From IMG/VR virus record IMGVR_UViG_3300017750_000117, positions 1 to 23,922 of that record: DNA of 23,922 nt; one strand, given 5' to 3'. The translations under genes were made by a program, and so were the position numbers. The notes under the pieces are model-generated. The model made no database searches and was not told where the DNA came from. It saw only the letters and a list, made by a program, of their open reading frames with translations. Shown piece after piece: positions 1 to 8,670 of the stretch. The stretch comes from a virus. Each line of letters starts with the position of its first letter. Within the stretch, counting starts at the first letter, position 1.

Positions 1-2629
1 AATTTTTGAAAGTAACACTAGGGATACTTACTACTCAGGGTTTAGAATATTCAAAGATACGGCAGATAGGATATCAATCCTTATATCAGACTCTGGTAAT
101 AATACAGATTACTCTAGGGTTAGGGCTGGGGACTTTGATGCCAATATTTGGTACTTTGTAACAATTACTAGCGATATGGATGGCAGTTTTTATACCTCAT
201 CTAACACTAAAATATATATAGACAATGTAATTCAGGCTAATTCTTCATATAATACTGGTTGGGATTCTAGTCACTCTGTAGGATATTCAGGTAGTGGCAA
301 GACAATGTTTTCTAAAGCACTAGTCCCCGACCCTGATACATTCTCGAAATTTCAAATTAAGAACTTTGCAATATGGAATGTCCAATTAGACTCAAATAAT
401 AGGACTGCTATTTATAATAGCGGAGCATTTACAACATTAAAAAATAACTTTGGGAACTATAATAAGTCAGGAAATTTAAAGGCTTATTGGGAGTTTAATT
501 CTGGAAGTAACTATGTAGAAGACCTTAGTGGGAATGTATCCAATGGCACAGTTACAGGAGCTAAATATGGTGGTTTCTTGCCCTTAGCTCTCTCAGATAC
601 CACAGTAGATGATGTAACTTATCATGGCTTTGTTACTAAGGCAGGCTCCATACGAGATACAATCAATTTACAGAATTCAAGTGCTAAGTCATCAAACTTG
701 ACTATTAGTGTAGGAGATTTTACCTATGAGAATGATAAGCTATCAAAACAGGTCTTGTTTGGTAATAAATACTATATTAATAAAACAGTAAAGGTTTATT
801 CTCAACCTATTAATAAATCAAATATAGATAGTTGTGTTCAAATATATAATGGTCGCTTAACAGATGTGGATATCAGCTCAAATGGATTATTAAATTTTAG
901 TTTTGCATCTAAGACTCCTTGGGACTTTATTACATTCCCACAAACTAAAACAAATACCACTCAGCAATACATTCCTGTAGTATATGGTAATTATACAGGC
1001 AATACTTATTCTGATAAAGTAACTAATATGGATTATTTAGTTCATCCTGTGCCTATTATGAGATTGGGCGATCCAAATCTTTTAGCAATCGCAACAAAAG
1101 CCGAGACTTCAATTTTACCACATTATTATGAGCCTGCTTTAAATGCTTTTATCCCATTAAACACATCAAATTACACGGCAGCAACTTTAAATCAAAACTC
1201 AGCATATGATAGTACTGCTAATGTTGCTGAAGTAGATAAGTCATTAAAAAGGTCTTTTAAGACAAGGCCAATTAGTATCACAGGCTCCGATGGCCATGAT
1301 AGTGGTAGTCATCAATTATTACTTCATAGTGGAAGTACTCAGGGAATGGGATATAGTGGTAATGGCTCTGCTAGTACCTATTTTAATTTTCCTTTAATAA
1401 ATGGGAAAATTACTGAGTTGGGACTACTAACTAAAGCGAATGTTGTAATCTTTGGAAGCCCTAATGGAACAAGCTATCAAAATATAGTTATATACTTTGA
1501 CACAGGAAATGAAACAATTGTTAATGCAAATAATGCAGGCTCATCAGGAACAGTTAACACATCAGGTAGTTTTTCTGGCTATACTGCTTATGATTATAGA
1601 AATATTCTAACTAATTATCAAGACTATGGCTACATATTACCACCTCTACGAATAAAGAGCCAAATTCAAAACAATCAAACTTTTGGAGCAACTGCAACTA
1701 CAACTGAGTTTCTAGCTCATTATGTAATTGAGTTTGATTTTACATCAGAATCAAAAGCGAAGGCAAGTTACAAGGAACTTGAAAAACTTGAATATATCTA
1801 TTTAGGCAACGATGGACTATCAAGTTCAATAACAGATACAACAACAGTAAGCGGGACCATAACATCAGGCCTGCACGCTCATCGTGACCTCTTGGCAAGA
1901 TTCACAGGATATGATGTCCCTGATTCTGATCTATATAATTGGTCAGATGATTTAAATGTTAACTCATTAAGGTCAGGGTGGAATTTAAGGTATTGGGCAT
2001 TAGAGCCTGTAGAGTTAAAGAAGGTCCTTCAGCAAATGCAGAAAGAATTTGCATTTATTTTCAAATGGCGACCAAACGGAGAGGGTTCTTATTGGACAGT
2101 TAAAGATAGTTACTCATCTGGAGATGTGGTCACTACTTTAGATATAGATGATATAAGCAATTTAAAAATTAATCATACACCATTTTCAGACTTAATCACA
2201 AAGATGGATGTCAATTATAAAAAGCACCCTGCTGAAGATAGAATGCTGCTAACTCAAACATCCCAAGACTCAACTTCAAGTCCAACACCAAGAGATAAAT
2301 GGAGCATTAGGACAAAAGAAAATCTGCTTTCTGTTGATCTTGAGATGAATGTAGATAAGCCAGGAAATGAAGATGTAGGACACGCTAACTCAGACCCAAA
2401 TGATGGATATGCTGATTATTATATGAGCATATTTGGAGATATAAAAAAGGTAATCTCTTGTGAAATAGTTAATCCTGCTAAGGGTTATATCTTAGAAACA
2501 GGAGATATAATCAAGTTTGATATTGACGAGATAAAGCCTTTTGGCGGGGATTGGAGTAACTATTATATGATTACAAGTATTCAAAGAAACATTGGAAAAA
2601 TAAAAATAAATTGTAGAGAGGTAGGATAA
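1..2629 (+). CDS. Large phage tail protein with LamG-like domain, 5'-truncated by window edge
   Basis: The frame is open from base 2 to the stop at 2627–2629. The first ATG (176) is internal, so the N-terminus lies outside the window. The visible part is about 875 residues. The first ~150 residues resemble a LamG/concanavalin-like jelly roll: a WYFVTIT strand, a KIYIDN strand, an IKNFAIWN strand and later LKAYWEFN. Such domains often bind carbohydrate. The rest is Ser/Thr/Asn-rich and beta-rich, with no enzyme motif that I recognise. The stop overlaps the next start (TAATG), showing translational coupling with another tail protein. I infer a tail-tip or baseplate protein, perhaps involved in host-surface binding. 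The family is not identified with certainty; position at the end of the late operon supports the structural call. Confidence 0.65.
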   Translation, partial: IFESNTRDTYYSGFRIFKDTADRISILISDSGNNTDYSRVRAGDFDANIWYFVTITSDMDGSFYTSSNTKIYIDNVIQANSSYNTGWDSSHSVGYSGSGKTMFSKALVPDPDTFSKFQIKNFAIWNVQLDSNNRTAIYNSGAFTTLKNNFGNYNKSGNLKAYWEFNSGSNYVEDLSGNVSNGTVTGAKYGGFLPLALSDTTVDDVTYHGFVTKAGSIRDTINLQNSSAKSSNLTISVGDFTYENDKLSKQVLFGNKYYINKTVKVYSQPINKSNIDSCVQIYNGRLTDVDISSNGLLNFSFASKTPWDFITFPQTKTNTTQQYIPVVYGNYTGNTYSDKVTNMDYLVHPVPIMRLGDPNLLAIATKAETSILPHYYEPALNAFIPLNTSNYTAATLNQNSAYDSTANVAEVDKSLKRSFKTRPISITGSDGHDSGSHQLLLHSGSTQGMGYSGNGSASTYFNFPLINGKITELGLLTKANVVIFGSPNGTSYQNIVIYFDTGNETIVNANNAGSSGTVNTSGSFSGYTAYDYRNILTNYQDYGYILPPLRIKSQIQNNQTFGATATTTEFLAHYVIEFDFTSESKAKASYKELEKLEYIYLGNDGLSSSITDTTTVSGTITSGLHAHRDLLARFTGYDVPDSDLYNWSDDLNVNSLRSGWNLRYWALEPVELKKVLQQMQKEFAFIFKWRPNGEGSYWTVKDSYSSGDVVTTLDIDDISNLKINHTPFSDLITKMDVNYKKHPAEDRMLLTQTSQDSTSSPTPRDKWSIRTKENLLSVDLEMNVDKPGNEDVGHANSDPNDGYADYYMSIFGDIKKVISCEIVNPAKGYILETGDIIKFDIDEIKPFGGDWSNYYMITSIQRNIGKIKINCREVG

Positions 2630-3693
2630 TGGCAAACTTAGATGTTCGCACACCAAGATTTTATTGTGATTACGCAAATTTTCTTATGAGTAGGGGGATT
2701 TCACAAAATAATAACTTTGACATCATAACAACAGATGCTAGTCATATTTCAGCAGTAAATGGAACAGAAGCAGAGCTTTTTGATATGAGGCCAATGAATC
2801 AGGTTGAGTTTAATACAACAGGCGATAGAGGTGGTCATGTAAATGTAACATTTGATATGAATACGGCAGGGTTCCGTGTTGATTTTGTAGCAATCTTAAA
2901 TCATAATATGATTGATGCTGATGCAAAAGTAAGAATTAGTGGAGATACTAATAGTAGCAATGGTCAAGCTACAACTAGAATAAATTCTGTAGATCACGCT
3001 AGTGTAGATTCTACACCGACTTTAGTTTTAGCAGATTGCTTAGGGGTTGATAGTGTCTCTGGGAATATTGCAACACCAAAAGGTTATTCGTCTAGCGGAA
3101 ATGAGGGACATACTATTATTACTTTTAGTGAAATGAATGAAAGATATTTTGGTGTTCAATTTGAAGGAAGCGATGGTAGCAATTTTAATGCATCAACTAA
3201 CTTAAAAATTGGATGTATTATGTTAGGGCAATATTACGATATGCCTCATAGCCCAGACCTATCTATAAAACGAAGTATAGTATTTGATGGGGTAACAACA
3301 CACCGATCATTAGGCGGGCAAACGTATTCTAATATGATTCATAGTGGAAGACGTTCTGTTAGCGATGAAAATAAGACTCCATTTCACACTTATTATTCAT
3401 CTTTTGGGGCTTATGGAGGTAGGATGGTTTATGATATGAACTTTAGCTATATTAACTCAACAGATTTGATGCCTGGAAATTATAACTTACCACAATCAAG
3501 TACTGATTCAGTTATTGAAGACATATGGAACAAAACAAATGGTAATCATATTCCATTTATATTTTCAGTTGATAGTACTAGCATGGCTCAATCAGACCAT
3601 ATGTTTGCTAGATTTGCTAATAATACATTAGAAACAAATCAGGTAGCAGATAAGGTTTGGAATGTCAAAATGAAAATACAGGAAGAATTTTAG
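2629..3693 (+). CDS. Putative phage tail protein (unknown family)
   Basis: A 354-aa protein whose ATG shares its A with the stop of the preceding tail gene. It has no signal peptide, membrane segment or catalytic motif. The sequence is rich in Asp, Asn, Ser and Thr and has short alternating hydrophobic strands (for example around residues 65–95), as expected for a beta-rich virion protein. The C-terminus (KVWNVKMKIQEEF) resembles the strand with which many phage tail-tip proteins end. It is the last gene before a convergent terminator and the attachment site, so it closes the tail module. Structural role is inferred from context; specific function is unknown. Confidence 0.55.
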   Translation: MANLDVRTPRFYCDYANFLMSRGISQNNNFDIITTDASHISAVNGTEAELFDMRPMNQVEFNTTGDRGGHVNVTFDMNTAGFRVDFVAILNHNMIDADAKVRISGDTNSSNGQATTRINSVDHASVDSTPTLVLADCLGVDSVSGNIATPKGYSSSGNEGHTIITFSEMNERYFGVQFEGSDGSNFNASTNLKIGCIMLGQYYDMPHSPDLSIKRSIVFDGVTTHRSLGGQTYSNMIHSGRRSVSDENKTPFHTYYSSFGAYGGRMVYDMNFSYINSTDLMPGNYNLPQSSTDSVIEDIWNKTNGNHIPFIFSVDSTSMAQSDHMFARFANNTLETNQVADKVWNVKMKIQEEF

Positions 3694-3698
3694 GCTGG

Positions 3699-3714
3699 AC
3701 CATATTGGACACGA
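3699..3714. repeat. attP-flanking direct repeat, copy 1 (16 bp)
   Basis: ACCATATTGGACACGA occurs here and again, identical and in the same orientation, at 3899–3914. The start-to-start distance is exactly 200 bp, and the two copies flank the tRNA-derived attachment core. Paired repeats around the core are typical of arm-type integrase or excisionase sites. That role is inferred from position. Confidence 0.7.
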
Positions 3715-3719
3715 GAATT

Positions 3720-3739
3720 GACCTAATTTGACCTAATTT
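3720..3739. repeat. Tandem 10-bp repeat in attP arm
   Basis: GACCTAATTT is present twice back to back (3720–3729 and 3730–3739), and GACAC follows directly. The spacing is about one helical turn. It lies in the left arm of attP and may bind integrase or excisionase; binding is inferred. Confidence 0.6.
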
Positions 3740-3770
3740 GACACATTACTTGCTATTTCATCTTTACAAA

Positions 3771-3794
3771 AAAGCCCCTATATTAAGGGGCTTT
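3771..3794. terminator. Bidirectional rho-independent terminator between tail genes and integrase
   Basis: AAAGCCCC (3771–3778) pairs with GGGGCTTT (3787–3794) across an 8-nt loop. An A-run before the stem supplies the U-tract for leftward transcripts. The right side gives a shorter U-tract. It lies between two convergent units, the tail operon (+) and repressor/integrase (-), as expected for a shared terminator. Confidence 0.75.
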
Positions 3795-3817
3795 ATCGAG
3801 GAGAAAAGGACTTAAAT

Positions 3818-3861
3818 GCCCTCGTAGTTCAACGGACAGAATAGATGCCTCCTAAGCATTA
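3818..3861 (+). other. attP core: 5' half of tRNA-Arg(CCT)
   Basis: The sequence folds as the first half of a tRNA. It has acceptor 5' strand GCCCTCG (3818–3824), T8/A9, a D-stem GTTC (3827–3830) with GAAT (3839–3842) and GG in the D-loop, and anticodon stem GATGC (3844–3848) with GCATT (3856–3860). The 7-nt loop CTCCTAA puts CCT at positions 34–36. No T-arm TTCGA and no 3' acceptor strand follow, so this is not a whole tRNA gene. The integrase gene ends inside it (stop 3859–3861). Together these mark the phage attachment core, with a host tRNA-Arg(CCT) gene as the predicted attB. Confidence 0.8.
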
Positions 3862-4935
3862 GGAAGTGGCTAATATATAAGGACTTACAGGCTCCTGTAC
3901 CATATTGGACACGAATTTAGAGAACTTCTTCATTGCCTGCTGCCTTTGATCTTGAATAATCCTAGCATACCATCTACGAGTTGTTTGAATATCAGCGTGA
4001 CCTAAATGCTCTGCTACTTGTTCAATTGAGCATCCAGAAGAAAGCATAAAAGAACCACAGGTAGAACGAAGCACTCTTGACGTAAATGGTATTCCGCTAT
4101 TTTTTGAGAGTTTTGCTAGACGTAGCCCAACTTTTTTTGCAGAATATCCCATAGGCTGACTTCGATATGAATACTTCATTAATATATCCATAACAAGCTC
4201 AGGAACGAATATTGTTCTTTCCTTATCAGCTTTCTCAATTACCTTTATTGTCTTATTAGTAAAATCAACTCTATCCCACGTTAAAGACAAAAGACCATTA
4301 AGCCTACAACCTGTATATAGATACATTACAAATATCTCATAAGTCTCTTCGTCCATAGGTGTCGCAAGAATCTTATTGACTTGATCTAGCTCAAGATAAT
4401 AAGGGTCCTTACTCTTAACAGTAAACTTAAAGAGCTCAGAAGGCATCTCTTTGACGAGTTTATCCTTATGGGTCATAGCTACATTAATTATTGATTTCAT
4501 AGCCCTTATATCGACATTTAGGCCATTAAGCTTTCTCTTAGGAAAATGCTTACGAAAATCAGTTGAGTCAAGGTTTTCTATCGGGCAGTTAGAACCTAAA
4601 GCATCTGAGAAATTAGCGAATGCATCGTGGTACTTATTTATAGTTAACTCTTTAATGGGCTTTTCTCTTTTTAGGTTTTTCCATTCTAAGCCTGTTTTAA
4701 AGAACCAATCATATAGTACTGCAATTGTAACTTGCCTGTTCGTTCTTTCAAACTTAAATCCCTGCTTCATTCTCTTTTCCATCTTCTCCCATTCTAATCT
4801 TTCTTTTTCGGCTTGCTCACTACTTCCATTAAATGTAAATCCTGTTCTTAATGGATTGCCATGCCTATCTTTCTTTTGGTAATCAGTATACCTTATTTTA
4901 TATTTATTAATTGTTAATTTTGTTTTACTTGCCAT
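3859..4935 (-). CDS. int: Tyrosine recombinase (phage integrase)
   Basis: A 358-aa site-specific recombinase that should join phage attP to a bacterial attB and, with a directionality factor, reverse the reaction. The N-terminal ~170 residues hold an arm-binding-like basic region and a helical core-binding domain. The C-terminal catalytic domain shows Arg211 (TGCRLNG), a Lys near 235–238 (EKADKER), R287-V-L-R290 in the place of the usual HxxR, His313 (LGH) and the nucleophile Tyr323 (RRWYAR). The first residue of the HxxR box is therefore Arg instead of His, which is unusual. The start overlaps the repressor gene by 11 nt, so the two are co-transcribed. The last codons run into the tRNA-derived attP core. 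Confidence 0.93.
   Translation of the reverse strand: MASKTKLTINKYKIRYTDYQKKDRHGNPLRTGFTFNGSSEQAEKERLEWEKMEKRMKQGFKFERTNRQVTIAVLYDWFFKTGLEWKNLKREKPIKELTINKYHDAFANFSDALGSNCPIENLDSTDFRKHFPKRKLNGLNVDIRAMKSIINVAMTHKDKLVKEMPSELFKFTVKSKDPYYLELDQVNKILATPMDEETYEIFVMYLYTGCRLNGLLSLTWDRVDFTNKTIKVIEKADKERTIFVPELVMDILMKYSYRSQPMGYSAKKVGLRLAKLSKNSGIPFTSRVLRSTCGSFMLSSGCSIEQVAEHLGHADIQTTRRWYARIIQDQRQQAMKKFSKFVSNMVQEPVSPYILATS
3899..3914. repeat. attP-flanking direct repeat, copy 2 (16 bp)
   Basis: Identical to 3699–3714. It lies inside the 3' end of the integrase gene, on the other side of the tRNA-derived core, as expected for an arm-type site. Just before it, ACAGG-CT-CCTGT-ACCA (3887–3902) looks vaguely like a collapsed tRNA T-arm plus ACCA, but it is coding sequence. 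Confidence 0.65.
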
Positions 4936-5284
4936 TAGTGTCGTCCTTTTTTTCTATCTGTTCTTTTATTTTATCGAGTTTTTCTTTCAGGTTTTTAATT
5001 ACATTTTTTTGTAATTCAATAATGTAAGATGCTTCAATAGTCACGTCTAATTCCTTGTCTTTTATTAGTTCGTCAATAATCTCAATATTGTCCCCATCAA
5101 TCGTAATCAATGTATTAGTAGCATCTGCAACAGCTTGTACGCTTTTTATTTGTATATTTGTAAAAATACCCTGCTTCCATTTGTAAAAAACAGTTCTAGA
5201 CATACCTGTTCTTTTTGCTAATTCAACAATAGATAAATGTGGATTATTGTCCATCATTGCTTTTATTACTTGTTGTTTGTTCAC
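4925..5284 (-). CDS. HTH (XRE-like) lysogeny repressor candidate
   Basis: A 119-aa DNA-binding protein. Residues ~16–40 form a helix-turn-helix (LSIVELAKRTGMSRTVFYKW). The C-terminal third (~90–115) is a charged heptad-like helix suited to dimerisation. There is no S24/LexA-type self-cleavage domain, so if it is the immunity repressor, induction would not use RecA-stimulated cleavage. It is transcribed divergently from the Cro-like gene and upstream of, and overlapping, the integrase, which is a common lysogeny module. A 20-bp near-palindrome lies 25 bp before its start and is a likely autoregulatory operator. The role as main repressor is inferred from position. Confidence 0.7.
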   Translation of the reverse strand: MNKQQVIKAMMDNNPHLSIVELAKRTGMSRTVFYKWKQGIFTNIQIKSVQAVADATNTLITIDGDNIEIIDELIKDKELDVTIEASYIIELQKNVIKNLKEKLDKIKEQIEKKDDTNGK

Positions 5285-7363: not shown

Positions 7364-7443
7364 ATTGGTAAAAATCACTATAATGGTGAGCAGGGTTAGC
7401 ATAACCCTCTTAACAAAGGGTGGATTCAGCCTTGACTCCCGCA
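7351..7443 (+). promoter_or_regulatory. Foldable RNA element at the methyltransferase start
   Basis: A perfect 10-bp inverted repeat (7351–7360 with 7434–7443) encloses several hairpins. TGAAT (7361–7365) can pair with ATTCA (7424–7428), and TCAC with GTGA. AGGGTTA (7392–7398) pairs with TAACCCT around a GCA loop. ACCCT can instead pair with AGGGT, which covers the likely Shine-Dalgarno AAAGGGTGG (7415–7423). The two pairings exclude each other. This could make a translational switch for the methyltransferase, or couple it to translation of the zinc-ribbon gene. Confidence 0.45.
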
Positions 7444-8010
7444 TTTAATAAAGATGTGGATATTACCCCAACAATTACACACCTCAGCTTATGTACAGGA
7501 TACGAAGGCATTGGACGTGGACTTAGAAACATTTGGCCAAATGTCAGAGAGGTCGCTTATGTGGAGATCGAAGCCTTCGCAATCGCAAACTTGGTTGCGA
7601 AGATGGAAGAGGGTAAACTACATCCAACACCTATCTATACGGACCTTAAAACTTTCCCATTCGAGAAGTTTTCTAAAAAGGTGGATATACTTTCAGCGGG
7701 CTTCCCTTGTCAGCCGTTTAGTGCTGCCGGAAGACGAGAATCAACAGACGATCCGAGACATTTATACCCATATATCGCTAAAGGAATCTCGGCCTGTAAG
7801 CCAACTTACGTTATTCTCGAAAATGTCGAAGGGATTATCAGTTCCAAAACGTCCTCTGGAGAGTCTGTACTCAAGTATGTCTGCGGAGATTTGGAAGAAA
7901 GAGGTTATAAAACAACGTGGGGAATATTCTCAGCGGTTGAAGTTGGGGCGACTCATCAACGAAAAAGGGTCTTCATCTTGGCCTACTCCAGATACAACGA
8001 ATGCAAATGA
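7432..8010 (+). CDS. DNA cytosine-C5 methyltransferase, catalytic part (motifs I–VIII)
   Basis: Transfers a methyl group from AdoMet to C5 of cytosine in DNA. Visible motifs, numbered from the GTG at 7420, are motif I (LSLCTGYEGIGRGL, 22–35), motif IV (GFPCQPFS, 94–101, catalytic Cys97), motif VI (ENV, 134–136) and motif VIII (HQRKRVFILA, 179–188). I prefer TTG 7432 as start because AAAGGGTGG lies eight bases upstream; GTG 7420 has no such site. The frame stops at 8010, just after motif VIII, so target-recognition region and motifs IX–X are missing. The missing parts follow at once in other frames (7877–8590, then 8557–8670). It may confer protection from host restriction or modify phage DNA. 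Confidence 0.8.
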   Translation: MTPAFNKDVDITPTITHLSLCTGYEGIGRGLRNIWPNVREVAYVEIEAFAIANLVAKMEEGKLHPTPIYTDLKTFPFEKFSKKVDILSAGFPCQPFSAAGRRESTDDPRHLYPYIAKGISACKPTYVILENVEGIISSKTSSGESVLKYVCGDLEERGYKTTWGIFSAVEVGATHQRKRVFILAYSRYNECK

Positions 8011-8590
8011 TGGTGTACCTTGGGAGAAATCAAAGAAGCAAATGGAAGAAAGACGAAAAAAAGTCAAAGAATTAGTGAAGCAGGGTAAGATAAAACAAGG
8101 AAGTGGAAGGTCGCTTAATCTAGCTACGGCAGTACAAAAAGAAAAGGATTGGCCTACACCAACAGGAGCAGAGGTTAGTGGTGGGACTAGAACTAAACAA
8201 ATATTAGAGGGCAAATGGGGAAACGTACAATTAAGAGAAGCAATAGAATTAGAGCAGGTGAAGAATTGGGGGACACCCAAGGAACAGGATTCGAGGGCAG
8301 CATCGTGGGACAGGGGCAAAAGCAACCTTGGAGAACAAGTACACGGACAAGATACCCCGCACGGCCAGGCGAAGAGCAACACGAGTGGGAAGAGCCAAGA
8401 GTCGTGGGGAACTCCAGCCCTGTACGATTACAACAAGAGGCCAAGGGCGGAAGTGAACTCGAAGCAGGCATCGATGGCAAGAAACTTGGGAAGACTAAAG
8501 CAGGACGGCAAACTGAATCCGAATTGGGTGGAGCAGATGATGGGCTTAGAAGTGGGGTGGACCCAATTACCAACAGAGTGGATAGATTGA
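7877..8590 (+). CDS. Methyltransferase variable/target-recognition region in +1 frame
   Basis: This frame overlaps the catalytic methyltransferase frame and runs on to 8590. It is open from 7454; ATG 7877, with GGAGAG upstream, is the likeliest start for a separate protein (238 aa). It has repeated WxTP motifs (SSSWPTPDTT, DWPTPTGAE, NWGTPKEQD, SWGTPALYD) and, near its end, LNPNWVEQMMGLEVGW. These are typical of the region between motifs VIII and X of phage cytosine-C5 methyltransferases. Here VFILAYS and SSWPTPD are encoded by the same bases in two frames. It is therefore either a separate subunit, a frameshift product, or the result of an indel. It ends just as motif X begins in the first frame. 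Confidence 0.5.
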   Translation: MSAEIWKKEVIKQRGEYSQRLKLGRLINEKGSSSWPTPDTTNANDGVPWEKSKKQMEERRKKVKELVKQGKIKQGSGRSLNLATAVQKEKDWPTPTGAEVSGGTRTKQILEGKWGNVQLREAIELEQVKNWGTPKEQDSRAASWDRGKSNLGEQVHGQDTPHGQAKSNTSGKSQESWGTPALYDYNKRPRAEVNSKQASMARNLGRLKQDGKLNPNWVEQMMGLEVGWTQLPTEWID

Positions 8591-8670
8591 GATTATTAGG
8601 TAATGGAGTTGTGCCTGAGACTGCGGAAAGAGCAATAAGAATTTTATTGGAGAGACTACATCAAGACTAA
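8557..8670 (+). pseudogene. Methyltransferase motif X fragment in the original frame
   Basis: The last ~38 codons read in the same frame as the catalytic part encode DRLRLLGNGVVPETAE…, a clear C5-methyltransferase motif X. The GTG at 8557 is only a nominal start; the frame is open back to 8215 but looks non-coding there. A -1 change near 8585–8590 would join the WxTP region to this motif. I list it as a gene fragment because no independent start with a good ribosome site is visible. It could instead be expressed by frameshifting. Confidence 0.5.

Follow-up and report, generated by a model that had tools for sequence, protein, structure and literature searches.

Genes and features at the locus

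The window analysed here is the whole stretch of 23,922 nucleotides of the IMG/VR record IMGVR_UViG_3300017750_000117, a phage sequence of environmental origin. At the locus of interest a tyrosine integrase gene runs up to a segment of a tRNA gene, and its start is overlapped by the gene of a helix-turn-helix regulator, with which it forms a probable operon (Table 1). On the other side of the tRNA segment lies a conserved phage gene transcribed towards the integrase. No family match was found for its product, which is probably a tail or structural protein. Because phage genes flank the site on both sides, we read it as an unintegrated attP and not as a prophage junction.

Two further observations concern genes of the window. 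By eye, the HxxR motif of the integrase reads RVLR (TSRVLRSTCG, between 4010 and 4110 on the minus strand), and the histidine of the catalytic box seems, from the sequence, to be replaced by arginine. A cytosine-C5 methyltransferase-like gene at 7420-8670 is apparently split over two or three frames: the N part occupies 7420-8010, and the middle and C parts follow in different frames as far as 8670; a frameshift, a split gene and an assembly error are all candidate causes.

Table 1. Features at and around the putative attP, in positions of the window
Feature	Position	Strand	Basis and remarks
Conserved phage protein, in 14 IMG/VR contigs	2629..3693	+	ORF and relatives; far side of attP from the integrase
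Putative P-arm copy of 20-nt direct repeat (CTGGACCATATTGGACACGA)	3695..3714	+	19/20 identical to 3895-3914
Three more TTGAC repeats in 10-bp phase (TTGACCTAAT, TTGACCTAAT, TTGACA)	3718..3743	+	repeat search
Intrinsic terminator hairpin	3771..3794	-	strong U-run on minus strand; terminator scan and folding
Copies of AAGGACTTA, 73 bp apart	3806..3814 and 3879..3887	+	repeat search
5' half of tRNA-Arg(CCT), identity block of the putative attP core	3818..3863	+	DNA match, cmscan, identity count
Anticodon loop CTCCTAA with inverted arms GATGC/GCATT beside it	3849..3855	+	sequence; putative crossover place
Tyrosine integrase, 358 aa	3859..4935	-	PF00589 E 3.9e-18; phrog_1 E 6.9e-41
Putative P'-arm copy of 20-nt repeat, within integrase C-terminal codons	3895..3914	+	repeat comparison
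Helix-turn-helix regulator	4925..5284	-	ORF and domain/profile matches; overlaps integrase start

Identity and extent of the tRNA half

Inspection of the sequence shows that the plus strand from 3818 to 3863 corresponds to positions 1-46 of a tRNA-Arg(CCT) and reads GCCCTCG TA GTTC AACGGACA GAAT A GATGC CTCCTAA GCATT AGG. The acceptor 5' strand, the D arm and the whole anticodon arm are present, with the anticodon CCT at 3851-3853, and nothing tRNA-like follows. The four pairs of the D-stem and the five of the anticodon stem (3844-3848 with 3856-3860) are intact. An Rfam cmscan of 601 bp against 4227 families gave a tRNA call at 3818-3885 of 21.2 bits (E 0.079), which falls under the Rfam tRNA gathering score of 29 bits because the fit is limited to the first 46 tRNA positions. 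ARAGORN detected no full tRNA in the window.

The best DNA match of the half in 7.3 Gb of plasmid-collection records was the tRNA-Arg(CCT) gene of Phocaeicola massiliensis, which sits in a record labelled plasmid. All 44 of the 44 bases were covered and 39 were identical (88.6%, E 7e-7). The identity and E-value of this match indicate that the tRNA half is real and not a chance resemblance. Counted per position, identity to the same gene was 40/46 at positions 1-46 versus 7/29 at positions 47-75, so that, relative to this proxy host gene, the identity block corresponds to one end of a tRNA gene, positions 1-46. The cmscan call, the DNA match and the identity count thus bear out the original prediction of an attP-like site with the 5' rather than the 3' half of tRNA-Arg(CCT). 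It had also described identity running from base 1 to the anticodon stem and then stopping, which we likewise observe, although the end may lie at 3863 rather than 3861. The stop codon of the integrase (TAA, 3859-3861) falls within the identity block, as had been claimed.

Repeats and hairpin around the core

The 20-nt direct repeat contains a 15-nt core that is longer than in every shuffle, and no shuffle equalled its match count. The two copies are likely to be arm-type sites of the integrase, and the TTGAC repeats between the first copy and the hairpin are likely to be additional ones; judged from sequence only, arm-type repeats flank the core on both sides. The AAGGACTTA copies also flank the core, just beyond the tRNA half, and could be sites for accessory proteins. 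We take contigs that share a 16-mer of the arm repeat to be chance matches, because none has the integrase or the tRNA half.

The hairpin is stable in both senses and receives a terminator score on the minus strand only; in the plus sense AUCG, and not a U-run, comes after the stem. Because the T-run (U-run in the transcript) is on the minus strand, which is the sense of the integrase, we read the hairpin as the integrase terminator, where the message would probably end after crossing attP. A terminator on the phage side had been predicted as an obstacle to transcription of the tRNA from that side. The hairpin is real, but with its U-tract on the minus strand it would not be expected to act as such a block.

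Proposed integration and in silico junctions

Taken together, we consider it highly probable that 3695-3914 serves a temperate phage as attP, with a core made up of the 5' half of the host tRNA-Arg(CCT) through the anticodon arm. As expected of an attP with a tDNA fragment, a tyrosine integrase adjoins the site. The anticodon loop is one of the two main crossover sub-sites in tDNA islands (PMC4383910), and here it is flanked by perfectly paired stems; we therefore place a putative 7-bp crossover region at 3849-3855. The integrase would recombine attP with an attB in the host tRNA-Arg(CCT) gene, crossing over in the anticodon loop. At one junction the host promoter and host 5' half would be joined to the 3' end of the integrase gene, leaving a dead 5' fragment, while at the other phage DNA, the phage 5' half and the host 3' half would form a complete tRNA. 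Because attP holds the 5' half, both the 5' half of this rebuilt tRNA and the region upstream of it would come from the phage, and its transcription would have to be driven from the phage side. After the crossover the integrase would retain its stop codon and be parted from its terminator, which stays across the crossover.

We joined attP in silico at the anticodon loop with the Phocaeicola massiliensis gene as a stand-in host. Where the phage left arm and 5' half were followed by the host 3' half, ARAGORN called a complete tRNA-Arg(CCT); it called none at the opposite junction, which contains a 5' fragment only. With this proxy host, a complete tRNA is thus present in silico at the downstream end only, which is the end expected for the 5'-fragment class, and the predicted rebuilding of a tRNA with a phage-borne 5' half is reproduced. 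The C-terminus and stop codon of the integrase were unchanged in the in silico product, since 3859-3861 lies on the integrase side of an anticodon-loop crossover. The suggestion that recombination could change the last codons of the integrase is therefore not supported for a crossover at 3849-3855.

A simple sigma-70 scan of the plus strand at 3694-3817 returned no sigma-70-like promoter, which leaves the expression of the rebuilt tRNA unexplained. Several contigs that have an integrase start 79-217 bp 5' of a tRNA-Arg(CCT) also show, by eye, a TAGAAT- or TAAAAT-like hexamer shortly before the tRNA, and this analogy suggests that phages at the 5' side may bring promoter-like sequence. One could speculate that after integration a phage promoter of some unrecognised kind drives the host tRNA, and that the host's own tRNA promoter, at the junction with the 5' fragment, reads antisense into the integrase. 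We regard this combination as improbable; if true, lysogeny would tie the supply of tRNA-Arg(CCU) to the prophage and would help to shut off the integrase.

Host and relatives

It had been proposed to search bacterial genomes for a matching tRNA-Arg(CCT). The nearest gene is the 39/44 match described above, and neither an exact 42-mer of the core nor a degenerate version of it was found in host genomes of 84,980 species, for which reason attB is something we infer. Bacteroidota were considered as the host because the best tRNA match is there, but a Shine-Dalgarno-like motif before most genes of the window speaks against this.

No IMG/VR viral contig contained the exact core or a close relative of the integrase, and no relatives of the helix-turn-helix regulator were found. 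A terminase-based search for relatives led to a phage (G006) with an integrase 26% identical to the one described here. This integrase likewise converges on the same structural-protein gene, a few bases away, and no tRNA match was found near it. In the contigs that share the structural gene beside attP (L018-L031) no tyrosine integrase was detected, and the integration module therefore seems to have been gained or lost beside this gene.

A pattern scan of IMG/VR identified 38 contigs with tRNA-Arg(CCT), all with a complete gene. In contigs G027-G062 (loci L034-L069), the integrase domains that lie no more than 2 kb from this gene number 19 on the 5' side, all divergent, and nine on the 3' side, all co-directional; five contigs have an integrase on each side. 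One contig, G027 (IMGVR_UViG_2843959644_000001), has a second copy of the tRNA's initial 14 bases near its far end, which fits a phage that sits upstream of the gene. Such a distal att repeat was sought in 16 tRNA-Arg(CCT) contigs and found in G027 only. The other 15 had none, possibly due to trimmed contig ends, and because of this the side of the integrase is weaker evidence there. These data suggest that 5'-side integration at tRNA-Arg(CCT) is frequent in IMG/VR.

Alternative explanations

Similar 5' sequence occurs in the tRNA-Arg genes of some phages, and the segment might be what is left of a complete tRNA-Arg(CCT) gene of the phage after decay of its 3' half, with no link to integration. 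We find this quite unlikely, since the match stops sharply past the anticodon arm (40/46, then 7/29), every stem position of the 5' half is intact, and the half adjoins the integrase and is flanked by arm-like repeats; the G006 integrase, too, lies a few bases from a structural-protein gene with no tRNA match there. The arm repeats and the position of the integrase, which fit an attP, also argue against a regulatory tRNA mimic, in which the 44 bases would act in the 3' region of the integrase and not as a recombination core. Overlap with the integrase stop codon would suit such a role, but the RNA folds no better than shuffles (z 0.31), and we give this idea very little credence.

tRNA-Arg(TCT) can read AGG. 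The site could then be an attP at which integration silences the host tRNA-Arg(CCT), with the host tolerating the loss by means of tRNA-Arg(TCT) or of a phage tRNA encoded elsewhere (PMC10865867). That no promoter was found upstream of the rebuilt gene is consistent with silencing, and since the window covers part of the phage genome, the remainder could encode a tRNA. However, the window itself has no tRNA gene, and the identity block is a full 5' half, longer than the ~10-17 bp cores of PMC10865867, as would be expected if selection maintains a functional rebuilt tRNA. Silencing therefore appears unlikely, and an attP that rebuilds the host tRNA is the interpretation we prefer.

Comparison with known systems

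The original prediction treated a phage-borne 5' half as a departure from known behaviour, but there is precedent for it. Islander lists 159 5'-fragment versus 3760 3'-fragment islands, 3919 in total, so that 4% are of the 5' type (PMC4383910). Among 88 elements integrated at tRNA genes in Sinorhizobium meliloti, 9 match the tRNA 5' end and preserve the tRNA (PMC11476347). The Islander 5'-fragment islands share with our site a tyrosine integrase, an attP with a 5' fragment of the target tRNA and an element-borne 5' part in the rebuilt tRNA; they differ in that here the attP alone is seen, with no integrated copy and no attL or attR of this phage. The S. meliloti prophages and islands are alike in having the attR repeat at the tRNA 5' end and a preserved tRNA gene, and differ in host and phages.

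Phages with tRNA-dependent lysogeny, such as Fionnbharth, also have a tyrosine integrase, likewise place the core within a tRNA gene and likewise face a shortfall in tRNA supply once integrated. Their cores of ~10-17 bp do not restore the tRNA, a loss made good by a whole tRNA of the phage (PMC10865867), whereas here the core spans 46 positions and rebuilds the tRNA in silico, and the window, a genome fragment, has no tRNA gene. Integrases that extend across attP are known from Mx8 and SSV, as cited in PMC4383910, and like them our integrase has a coding sequence that touches the att core. Here the overlap is confined to the stop codon and adjacent bases, and a crossover in the anticodon loop would leave the coding sequence as it is. 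G027-type contigs have the same tRNA-Arg(CCT) isoacceptor, and the repeat of G027 likewise involves the tRNA 5' end. However, G027 shares no more than 14 bp there, and the G027 integrase is on the 5' side and divergent from the tRNA, whereas ours is on the 3' side and faces it.

The apparently frequent occurrence of 5'-side integrases at tRNA-Arg(CCT) in IMG/VR implies that phages strongly tend to carry the 3' half but do not always do so. The site described here is a clean 5'-fragment example with a fully readable attP, and it poses the question of where the promoter of the rebuilt tRNA comes from. Overall, the 5' arrangement is uncommon but already catalogued, and there is good support for placing this site in the minority 5'-fragment class as one of its ordinary representatives.
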